Of a stretch of 64,000 bases of DNA, positions 1,289 through 46,157 are shown piece after piece. Below the pieces are notes generated by a model that was not told the DNA's origin, did no database searches, and saw only the letters and a program-made list of their open reading frames with translations. The stretch is from positions 3,981,501 through 4,045,500 of the forward strand of contig NZ_CP066783.1 in the NCBI RefSeq assembly GCF_019186805.1, in the 5' to 3' direction. The stretch's first letter is position 1. Each line of letters begins with the position of its first letter. The stretch comes from Comamonas fluminis. Its GTDB lineage: Bacteria > Pseudomonadota > Gammaproteobacteria > Burkholderiales > Burkholderiaceae_C. Made by a program: the position numbers and the translations under genes.

Positions 1289-2541
1289 CCACACAAACCA
1301 CAGGCGCCGTGGCAGGCACAGCCACGCCCGCCGCTCCAACAGAAGTCAACGGATACAGCTGGAAAGCACTCATGGGCTCGGCCGTCGGCTACGCCATGGA
1401 CGGCTTTGACCTGCTGATTCTGGGCTTCATGCTCTCCGCCATCTCCAAAGACCTGAACCTGACGCCCGGCCAGGCTGGCTCGCTGGTGACCTGGACCCTG
1501 ATCGGCGCCGTCTTTGGCGGCATCGTCTTCGGCATGCTCAGCGACCGCTTTGGCCGCATTCGTGTGCTGACCTGGACCATCGTGCTGTTTGCCGTCTTCA
1601 CCGGCCTGTGCGCCTTTGCCCAGGGCTACTGGGACCTGCTGGCCTACCGCACCATTGCAGGCATTGGCCTGGGCGGCGAGTTCGGCATTGGCATGGCCCT
1701 GGCCGCCGAGGCCTGGCCTGCCCGCCACCGCGCCCGCGTCTCCTCCTATGTGGCGCTGGGCTGGCAGCTGGGCGTTCTGGGTGCAGCGCTGCTGACCCCG
1801 CTGCTGCTGCCACTGATTGGCTGGCGCGGCATGTTCCTCGTGGGCGTGATTCCCGCTGTCGTAGCCTGGGTCATCCGCCACCAGTTGCACGAGCCTGAGG
1901 TGTTTGTGGCCAAAAGCAAGCAGCAGCGCCCCTCTGCCATGCACTGCCTCAAGCAGCTGATGAAGGACAAGACCACAGCCAAGATCAGCCTGGGCGTGAT
2001 CGTTCTGACCTCGGTACAGAACTTTGGCTACTACGGCATCATGATCTGGATGCCCAGCTTTCTGTCCAAGCAGATGGGCTTCAGCCTGACCAAGTCCTCC
2101 ATGTGGACAGCCGTCACCATTGTTGGCATGTCGATTGGCATCTGGGTGTTCGGCCAGCTGGCTGACCGCATTGGCCGCAAGCCCACCTTCCTGATCTTCC
2201 AGGTCGGTTCCGTCATCTCCGTGCTGGCCTATTCCCAGCTCACCGATGCCACGGCCATGCTGTGGGTGGGCGCCATCATGGGCTTGTGCGTGAACGGCAT
2301 GATGGGCGGCTATGGCGCTGTCATCAGCGAAGCCTATCCCACCGAAGCCCGCGCCACTGCGCAGAACGTGCTGTTCAACATCGGCCGCGCTGTCGGCGGT
2401 TTTGGCCCAGTCGTCATCGGCGCGCTGGCCATGGCCTATTCCTTCCAGGTCGCCATCGCCCTGCTGGCCGCCATCTATGTGCTGGACATGCTGGCCACGG
2501 CCTTTCTGATTCCCGAACTCAAGGGCAAAGAACTTCAATAA
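1285..2541 (+). CDS. MFS transporter, aromatic acid:H+ symporter (AAHS) type
   Basis: This 418-residue polytopic membrane protein has the family-typical DGFD in the first membrane segment (about residues 39-42), SDRFGR in the loop after segment 2 (about 86-91) and a second copy, ADRIGRK, in the second half. Twelve hydrophobic segments are apparent. AAHS proteins import aromatic or related organic acids with protons. The substrate cannot be deduced, since no catabolic genes flank it. The GTG start at 1285 is chosen because AAGGA lies 7-8 nt upstream and the protein then begins just before the first membrane segment. The frame stays open far upstream but that part is not protein-like. Confidence 0.85.
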   Translation: MTTQTTGAVAGTATPAAPTEVNGYSWKALMGSAVGYAMDGFDLLILGFMLSAISKDLNLTPGQAGSLVTWTLIGAVFGGIVFGMLSDRFGRIRVLTWTIVLFAVFTGLCAFAQGYWDLLAYRTIAGIGLGGEFGIGMALAAEAWPARHRARVSSYVALGWQLGVLGAALLTPLLLPLIGWRGMFLVGVIPAVVAWVIRHQLHEPEVFVAKSKQQRPSAMHCLKQLMKDKTTAKISLGVIVLTSVQNFGYYGIMIWMPSFLSKQMGFSLTKSSMWTAVTIVGMSIGIWVFGQLADRIGRKPTFLIFQVGSVISVLAYSQLTDATAMLWVGAIMGLCVNGMMGGYGAVISEAYPTEARATAQNVLFNIGRAVGGFGPVVIGALAMAYSFQVAIALLAAIYVLDMLATAFLIPELKGKELQ

Positions 2542-2563
2542 AGATAGCAGCTACCGCATATAG

Positions 2564-2600
2564 AAAAAGCGCCAGAGCCTAAAAAGCCTGGCGCTTTTTT
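2564..2600. terminator. Bidirectional terminator between the MFS gene and modE
   Basis: AAAAAGCGCCAG (2564-2575) pairs with CTGGCGCTTTTTT (2588-2600), with A and T tracts on opposite flanks, so it can end transcripts arriving from both convergent genes. Confidence 0.85.
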
Positions 2601-2620
2601 ATGTATTGAGTAAGAGGTCT

Positions 2621-44528: not shown

Positions 44529-45689
44529 TCAGGCAGTGACTTCTGCTTCTTTTTTAGTAGCAGCTGCTGCTTCACGGCGCTTGAGAACAGCCTGCGACAG
44601 CTCTTCCAGCGTGGTCAGGGAATCATCCCAGCCCAGGCAGGCATCGGTAATGCTCTGGCCATAGGTCAGGTTGCAGACTTCGTCCTTGCCGGGGGTGAAC
44701 TTCTGGGCACCGCCGACCAGGTGGCCTTCGATCATCACGCCGAACACGCTGTTGGAGCCACCGGCGATCTGGCCTGCGATGTCGCGTGCCACATCCTTCT
44801 GGCGCTCATGCTGCTTGCTGCTGTTGGCGTGGCTGCAGTCCACCATCAGGGTCGGCGTCAGGCCTGCGGCTTCCAGGTCCTTGCAGGCGGCAGCCACATG
44901 GTCGGCATCATAGTTAGGGGTCTTGCCGCCGCGCAGAATCACGTGGCAGTCCTGGTTACCGCCGGTGTGCACGATGGCGACCTGGCCGTTCTTGTGCACC
45001 GACAGGAAGTGGTGACCACGGCTGGCCGACTGGATCGCGTCGGTGGCAATGCGGATATTGCCGTCTGTACCGTTCTTGAAGCCGATGGGCGCCGAGATGC
45101 CCGAAGCCAGCTCGCGGTGCACCTGGCTCTCTGTCGTGCGGGCGCCAATCGCGCCCCAGCTGATCAGGTCGCCGATGTACTGGGGCGAGATAACGTCCAG
45201 GAACTCGCTGGCAGCAGGCACGCCCATGCGGTTGATGTCGATCAGCAACTGGCGTGCAATGCGCAGGCCTTCGTCAATGCGGTAGCTCTGGTCCAGGTAG
45301 GGGTCGTTGATCAGCCCCTTCCAGCCCACCGTGGTGCGAGGCTTTTCGAAGTACACGCGCATCACCACTTCCAGCGTGTCCTTGTACTGCTCACGCACTG
45401 CGGCCAGGCGGCGGGCGTAGTCCAGCGCTGCTGCAGGATCGTGAATCGAGCAAGGGCCGACGATAACCAGCAGACGATCATCCTGCGCACGCATGATGTT
45501 GTGAATGCTGCGGCGGGTATCGCTGATCAAGGTCTCCACAGCGGTGCCGCGGATGGGGAAGAAGCGAATGAGATGCTCTGGAGGGGGTAACACTGTGATT
45601 TCCTTGATACGTGCGTCGTCGGTCTGGCCTGTCTTGGGAGAACCGGGGCGATACCAGGAATCGGTGGAGGAAGTGTTCAGAGCAGTCAT
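44529..45689 (-). CDS. aroG: 3-deoxy-7-phosphoheptulonate (DAHP) synthase, AroG/AroF class
   Basis: The 386-residue class I DAHP synthase condenses PEP and erythrose-4-phosphate, the first step to aromatic amino acids. Typical segments are LLVIVGPCSIHD (about residues 73-84), MRVYFEKPRTTVGWKGLINDP, GFKNGTDGN and DCSHANSSK. Which aromatic amino acid inhibits it cannot be decided from sequence by eye. It lies 60 bp downstream of an attenuator with an aromatic-rich leader peptide, so transcription should respond to charged aromatic tRNAs. Confidence 0.94.
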   Translation of the reverse strand: MTALNTSSTDSWYRPGSPKTGQTDDARIKEITVLPPPEHLIRFFPIRGTAVETLISDTRRSIHNIMRAQDDRLLVIVGPCSIHDPAAALDYARRLAAVREQYKDTLEVVMRVYFEKPRTTVGWKGLINDPYLDQSYRIDEGLRIARQLLIDINRMGVPAASEFLDVISPQYIGDLISWGAIGARTTESQVHRELASGISAPIGFKNGTDGNIRIATDAIQSASRGHHFLSVHKNGQVAIVHTGGNQDCHVILRGGKTPNYDADHVAAACKDLEAAGLTPTLMVDCSHANSSKQHERQKDVARDIAGQIAGGSNSVFGVMIEGHLVGGAQKFTPGKDEVCNLTYGQSITDACLGWDDSLTTLEELSQAVLKRREAAAATKKEAEVTA

Positions 45690-45749: not shown

Positions 45750-45786
45750 AAAAAAAAAACCGCCGGGCTTTGCAGCTTCGGCGGTT
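45750..45786 (-). terminator. Attenuator terminator upstream of aroG
   Basis: On the minus strand AACCGCCG (45786-45779) pairs with CGGCGGTT (45765-45758), and ten Ts follow. A competing antiterminator can form because CGGCGGC inside the leader ORF (45833-45827) is complementary to the CCGCCG of the first arm. Stalling at the aromatic codons would leave that segment free, and ribosome release at the stop would hide it. Confidence 0.85.
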
Positions 45787-45816
45787 CTTTGGGAGGTGTT
45801 TGCAGGGTGCGCGCTA

Positions 45817-45879
45817 TTACCTCTCAGCCGCCGGGGGCGAGAACCAAAAGTAAAAGAAATAGGCGCGTTGCGTTTGCAT
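45817..45879 (-). CDS. aroG leader peptide (20 residues)
   Basis: ATG at 45879 opens MQTQRAYFFYFWFSPPAAER followed by TAA. Seven consecutive residues are aromatic (YFFYFWF: two Tyr, four Phe, one Trp), the hallmark of an attenuation leader, and a terminator with T run follows 31 nt later. TACATT (45892-45887) with an ATGCAA-complement -35 (TTGCAT) 16 bp away suggests transcription starts almost at the ATG; GAAAG could be a weak ribosome site. Confidence 0.85.
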   Translation of the reverse strand: MQTQRAYFFYFWFSPPAAER

Positions 45880-46157
45880 GTCTTTCAATGTAGCACAGCT
45901 CTTTTGCAATGCAACATCAACCACTGGCACAGCAGTCTTACCCTCCAGCCCCTTTCCCTCTGAAACAGGCTCATTTTTCAAAAAACCAATCACGCAATAT
46001 TTATGCAAATTTCTTGTTTTTTTAGAATTTTATTGATTTAAACAAGTTTCAAGCAAGACTTAGTGCAATTTTCAATCAACTCCGCCGATTTCAAGGCAAA
46101 CGCCCAAAAAGGCTTCAAAAACCCTTTCCAGATGCCTCTCCAGCGCAATGAGCCGAC
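45880..46157 (-). promoter_or_regulatory. Promoter region of the aroG leader transcript
   Basis: Apart from the TTGCAT/TACATT pair at 45887-45914, the stretch 45960-46090 is unusually AT-rich for this genome, with several possible -10/-35 pairs on the minus strand. No gene or clear operator is seen; no TyrR-type TGTAAA-N6-TTTACA was found. Confidence 0.4.

Follow-up and report, generated by a model that had tools for sequence, protein, structure and literature searches.

Ribosome-mediated attenuation is known in kind, and the E. coli pheA and trp leaders match the locus described here in element order and in the mechanism that we propose for it but precede another gene. Leaders that sense several amino acids exist (ilvGMEDA), and the aro genes of E. 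coli are under TyrR/TrpR control. The nearest described system is the aroR-aroF attenuator of Corynebacterium glutamicum, for which Neshat et al. 2014 is said to be the original study. There, a Phe-Tyr-Phe leader ORF lies before the DAHP synthase gene; ribosome stalling is reported to raise transcription under Phe limitation, and Tyr availability is reported to have no effect (PMC11802643, PMC4046766). Compared by description only, both systems have an aromatic-codon leader before a DAHP synthase gene; C. glutamicum differs in being an actinobacterium and in its Phe-Tyr-Phe codons, with no Trp mentioned. In Sinorhizobium meliloti, the trpL leader transcript is described as beginning at the ATG (leaderless) and carrying a ribosome-dependent attenuator; for its released RNA and peptide, action in trans is reported (PMC7298713). 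Our locus resembles this trpL type in that it lacks a Shine-Dalgarno sequence and has its -10 box immediately in front of the ATG, whereas trpL senses Trp and controls trpE(G) (PMC7298713). Burkholderia cenocepacia is reported to have leaderless transcripts that are immediately preceded by a TA-rich promoter motif (PMC4603805). The uORFC-13-1 motif is a predicted Phe-containing uORF followed by a terminator and aroF (DAHP synthase); it differs in coming from Acholeplasma and environmental sequences only, with a possible RBS and at least one Phe codon (PMC8632094). Putative attenuators upstream of Vibrio aroA-tyrA operons are tabulated in another study (PMC1173090).

The literature search gave no description of an aroG attenuator in Betaproteobacteria among the matches listed; older surveys may list some. 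As far as we searched, an aroG attenuator conserved in Comamonadaceae and in 11 or more other family-level groups of the order is new, and so are the probable leaderless start, the unequal occurrence of Trp codons and the lack of a leader at the second isozyme in the six loci we examined. At the aroG leader, the Rfam family Phe_leader (RF01859) scored 14.2 bits (E 8.3), below its threshold of 55, and no Rfam family matched there at its gathering score. Rfam matches at E up to 10 were weak and were set aside; the best was STnc240 with 27.7 of 55 bits.

We analysed a 64-kb stretch of DNA, called the window below. The arrangement of an aromatic leader peptide and an attenuator before aroG was confirmed in its sequence (Table 1). 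On the minus strand, the -10 box is followed by seven bases, the leader ORF, a spacer, the hairpin with ten T, 60 nt and aroG. The initial annotation had reported the 20-codon ORF with YFFYFWF and the hairpin with ten T at 60 nt from aroG; we re-derived both from the letters, with their coordinates. The arms of the terminator are AACCGCCG (45786-45779) and CGGCGGTT, the ten T occupy 45759-45750, and 60 nt separate them from the aroG ATG at 45689. The leader element reads CGGCGG...GAGAGG in the window. Its CGGCGGC (45833-45827) had also been described as complementary to the first arm of the terminator, and on checking it does match CCGCCG there. In the antiterminator, CGGCGG pairs with this CCGCCG and GAGGT with ACCTC. 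Three features of trp/phe-type attenuation are present in the sequence: a short aromatic leader ORF, a terminator before aroG and an antiterminator that competes with the terminator for its first arm, so that only one of the two can form. We consider it very probable that the locus is a ribosome-mediated transcription attenuator of aroG. Two tRNA genes were also seen in the window, at 723-796 and 921-994 of the plus strand.

Table 1. Parts of the aroG leader region, in window coordinates
Feature	Positions	Strand	Basis or remark
Extended -10 box TGCTACATT	45887..45895	-	predicted transcription start at the leader ATG or beside it
Leader ORF MQTQRAYFFYFWFSPPAAER and stop, 20 codons, without Shine-Dalgarno	45817..45879	-	ATG at 45879, stop end 45817
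YFFYFWF, seven aromatic codons, putative stall codons	45841..45861	-	sequence, geometry, chance scan
Region 1, possible partner of region 2 (pause / anti-antiterminator hairpin)	45836..45850	-	MFE fold
Region 2 (CGGCGG + GAGGT), 5' half of the antiterminator, within the ORF	45819..45833	-	pairing, conservation
Region 3 (ACCTC...AACCGCCG), common to antiterminator and terminator	45779..45797	-	pairing, conservation
Predicted intrinsic terminator, hairpin + T10 tract (end of region 3, plus region 4)	45750..45786	-	sequence, fold, alignment
aroG, type I DAHP synthase (3-deoxy-7-phosphoheptulonate synthase), 386 aa	44529..45689	-	NCBIfam model

The close-relative set consisted of the best 80 of at least 564 aroG relatives in genome contigs, mostly Comamonadaceae. 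One locus with 31 nt upstream (L036) was left out, which leaves 79. Each of these 79 relatives has a short ORF in which 6 to 8 of 8 codons stand for aromatic residues. An extended -10 box, TG-N-TANNNT, ends 6-8 nt before the leader ATG in 80 of 80 sequences, and hexamer positions 3 and 5 alone vary (in L018, L019, L024 and L028, the start was set at the in-frame ATG two codons further upstream). Shuffles give TANNNT at 5-9 nt in a mean of 4.6 of 80. A Shine-Dalgarno-like 4-mer at 3-11 nt before the ATG occurs in none of the 80 (8.4 in shuffles). Order-wide, TANNNT at 5-9 nt is present in 49 of 94 leaders (shuffles 6.6, maximum 12) and a Shine-Dalgarno-like 4-mer in 7 of 94 (shuffles 8.6); some order loci without the near box have a -10-like box further upstream. 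At three loci with leaders of the MSAKFYFYFF... type (L098, L104, L110), we observed a TATAAA-like box about 35-42 nt upstream and no evident Shine-Dalgarno sequence. A sigma-70 consensus scan reported no promoter at the leader of the window, where the -35 is poor. Because the extended -10 box stands 6-8 nt before the ATG and a Shine-Dalgarno sequence is lacking, the leader is probably translated leaderless, a feature that the initial annotation had missed.

To estimate the effect of ribosome position, we folded the nascent RNA up to region 3 for every stall position, on the assumption that the ribosome covers 12 nt from the first A-site base. In the window, a ribosome stalled at any of codons 9-12 (F, Y, F, W) gives a predicted antiterminator probability of 1.0; this drops to 0.39 for codon 13 and to 0 from codon 14 to the stop. 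The fall near GGCGG is largely due to the assumed 12-nt ribosome edge, and the mean of 0 at the stop codon likewise follows from the assumed footprint. For stalls at earlier codons the probability is about 0.7. In the 80 sequences, the codons 12-30 nt before GGCGG are mostly aromatic (61-100% by position). An attenuator driven by failed leaderless initiation or by a general slowing of translation, rather than by the aromatic codons, would agree with the probable leaderless start in 80 of 80 sequences and with an antiterminator probability that is still 0.54 in the window without a ribosome. But the aromatic codons lie just where a stall frees region 2: at a distance of 14-15 nt from GGCGG, all 80 sequences have an aromatic codon (Trp in 53), and at 8-9 nt none of the 80 has one. 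We consider this explanation improbable. Without a ribosome, region 2 of the window pairs upstream with a probability of only 0.43; over the 80 sequences, the 1:2 hairpin forms with a mean probability of 0.44 and the antiterminator with 0.32. The weakness of this upstream pause hairpin makes basal readthrough unpredictable.

The aromatic run is unusual for the window. In its six frames, YFFYFWF is the only run of at least five aromatic residues, and the only short ORFs above 5 aromatics in 8 are the leader and its nested longer forms. The initial annotation had proposed that the mix of codons reads all three aromatic tRNAs at once. This holds for the close relatives, where the 8-residue core contains Phe, Tyr and Trp in 79 of 79 (from the best 80 of at least 564), but not across the order: among 94 order-wide cores, Phe occurs in 94, Tyr in 83, Trp in 44 and all three in 39. 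Trp codons are not general, and their use across the order is uneven. The C-termini of the leader peptides vary within the family (PPAAER, VPGG, PGGREASA and LAEG types), and GGCGG is present in all three reading frames across the leaders. This indicates selection on the RNA and not on the peptide. TnaC represents the nascent-peptide arrest type of leader. If the aroG leader were of this type, free aromatic amino acid rather than tRNA charging would be sensed; many relatives do stop directly behind VPGG with W a few codons earlier, but the C-termini differ while the GGCGG nucleotides stay, in three frames, and we regard such arrest as very improbable.

To determine the distribution in the order, we took the best aroG match per genome, which 84 of 110 genomes searched had; some of the 84 share only 37-55% identity and possibly represent other types of DAHP synthase. 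An aromatic leader (at least 5 aromatics in 8 codons) was found at 24 of the 84 loci compared to 2 of 84 on the opposite strand, and at a score of at least 6 the numbers were 21 and 0. The arms GGCGG...CCGCC...GGCGG-TTT accompany 24 of the 24 leaders in this unselected sample and are present at 1 of the 60 loci without a leader. A constitutive terminator of the upstream unit beside a chance aromatic ORF, with no regulation, is highly improbable, since leader and arms occur together in this way and tldD has a separate hairpin and T stretch behind it, even though CCGCC/GGCGG matches are common in GC-rich DNA and tldD lies upstream of the leader on the same strand as aroG. The stretch 3' of tldD, at about 46199-46160 of the minus strand, was found by eye and is unscored; it is likely a terminator. 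It therefore seems that a separate unit begins with the leader. The reading as an attenuator of aroG also fits the larger set, in which the three arms are kept in 168 of 173 leaders; as 94 of the 173 were found by a model that contains the arms, 24/24 against 1/60 is the fair number. The initial annotation had made its reading depend on conserved leader codons and arm complementarity in relatives, and both are conserved.

The 94 order-wide leaders come from 116 loci examined. No aroG was present in 15 of them (L114-L119, L189, L192-L199), four scored under 5 (L177, L184, L185, L186), and we also left out a near-copy and a copy of the window (L084, L085) and a spurious ORF (L164). Stretches cut at the estimated aroG start miss the terminator in 37 of 95 loci; the count of 168 of 173 uses longer stretches. 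The 24 leader loci of the unselected sample span 12 family-level groups (f1, f3, f4, f8, f10, f11, f12, f13, f20, f23, f40, f44), and in the model-selected set the leader is also present in f30 and f32. At class level, 29 loci were examined out of 40 matched genomes other than our own. Outside the order they gave one clear leader (L300, genome G410) and one 10-residue ORF with a score of 5, which we ascribe to chance; a score of 5 also came up once on the opposite strand. When 369 genomes were searched with a model, four from outside the order matched over its full length (E <=2.3e-15), each with aroG behind an aromatic leader, and 33 more matched less well (E >=2e-6). Model R1, built from the close relatives and the window only, matched 121 of 399 genomes in the order at E <=0.01, some by the terminator only. 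Model R2 matched 163 of 399 at E <=0.001, a count that is not independent because its rows come from such genomes. In our own genome R1 gave 24 matches, of which the other 23 were weak (E >=0.008) and mostly covered the terminator end only. One of the matches in the window, at about 2488-2601 (plus strand), looks like an ordinary gene-end hairpin and was rejected; the remaining one is the reverse strand of the aroG leader terminator.

Two further observations concern gene neighbourhoods. At L242, L244, L257 and L262, the ORF before aroG is a TldD-like end with a C-terminal sequence nearly that of the TldD in the window, and an aromatic leader was not found before aroG at these four loci. Thus, tldD-aroG synteny is wider than the attenuator. 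At L339, L342, L343, L344 and L346 (about 300-560, match strand), a second aromatic leader of the MITFSAVFNAYFYWYRSSRRLQGASLD type stands before a non-aroG ORF; at L339 a GGCGGC/GCCGCC hairpin lies behind the leader, and the 203 aa ORF has no Pfam match over the cut-off.

We also assessed whether the RNA pairings themselves are supported. The RNA of the leader region folds with a z of -2.22, and 5 of 200 shuffles were as stable. A crude terminator scan of the window gave 2 sites, including a form of the leader hairpin, with 1.1 expected by chance; since this count is near chance, the weight for the terminator rests on conservation. After removal of identical copies, 75 of the 80 sequences remained, window included, and in their alignment GGCG, ACCGCC and GGCGGTTTT are invariant. 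The outer helix of the antiterminator varies in this set (GAGG/CCTC, CGAGA/TCTCG, GAGTTC/GAATTC), and its mean strength of 11.48 exceeds that of 500 of 500 permutations of the 3' sides (mean 10.84) and 200 of 200 shuffles (mean 9.26, maximum 10.2). A second alignment (A2, 67 sequences) held the window and 66 of 91 order loci, hand-chosen for diversity. In it 97.7% of terminator cells are paired (best slid control 54.5%) and 90.0% of those of the antiterminator core (best slid control 52.5%), and covariation scores are above 500 of 500 shuffles. However, doubly changed pairs and pair types in A2 do not exceed the shuffles, with 34 and 266 of 500 as high for the terminator and 257 and 314 for the antiterminator. 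The GGCGG/CCGCC core is nearly invariant, and covariation is limited.

The position beside GGCGG does vary. Read as leader, first arm and second arm, it is C/G/C in 75 and T/A/T in 32 of 168 leaders; it is paired in the antiterminator in 128 of 168 (unpaired in 40) and in the terminator in 159, counts that kinship among the sequences inflates. In the order set, a permutation was never as good at the first and third flanking positions; at the second it was as good (64 observed, 63.9 expected). To allow for kinship, we used an AroG protein tree of 115 of the 168, made up of the order loci and roughly one in three of the named loci. Of six phylogenetically independent pairs, 4 have a leader base that changes with the terminator arm, 0 have one that goes against it and 2 show no difference (p 0.125). 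The result has the right direction and is short of significance; the test is too small to decide. A shuffled-leader test gave p <=0.05 at only 35 of 58 loci.

The gene behind the leader was assigned with protein models. Its product scores 532.2 bits against NCBIfam TIGR00034 (aroFGH; cut-off 173.2) and 556 against a narrower AroG model, slightly below that model's own cut-off of 568, and the closest solved chains are DAHP synthases. The genome belongs to a relative of Comamonas testosteroni; its AroG is 97% identical to the nearest named locus among the matches listed. Its second DAHP synthase (55% identical) has no aromatic leader upstream, and among paralogous DAHP synthase loci 0 of 6 examined have one. 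Models of the TrpR family and of the TyrR-type helix-turn-helix gave no match in this genome, with positive E. coli controls for both.

The trp/phe-type layout proposed by the initial annotation agrees with the conserved leader, with the joint occurrence of leader and arms and with the geometry of the antiterminator. In the mechanism that we propose, RNA polymerase would start at or beside the leader ATG, and the leader would be translated from its 5' end without a Shine-Dalgarno sequence. When charged tRNA-Phe, tRNA-Tyr or (here) tRNA-Trp is low, the ribosome would stall at the aromatic codons, 12-30 nt upstream of GGCGG, and leave region 2 to pair with region 3; the terminator would be blocked, and aroG would be transcribed. 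A ribosome that reaches the leader end would cover region 2, so that regions 3 and 4 would pair as the terminator and RNA polymerase would release a transcript of about 130 nt.

A wider proposal is far more tentative, and we think it unlikely as a whole: one leaderless ribosome would read the charging of three aromatic tRNAs and, in much of the Burkholderiales, replace TyrR/TrpR control where the shikimate pathway begins, with lineage-dependent Trp sensing, and the released leaderless RNA of ~130 nt and the peptide may act in trans, as reported for rnTrpL/peTrpL. The absence of TyrR and TrpR refers to this genome alone. DAHP synthase is a common target when strains are built for aromatic production. 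Since the leaders occur with and without Trp codons and with region 2 in three frames, they are a natural series for studying how codon position sets amino-acid specificity. The attenuator would place the committed step of aromatic synthesis under transcription-level control in part of a large order, here in a genome without detected TrpR or TyrR, and it names the isozyme that carries this control.
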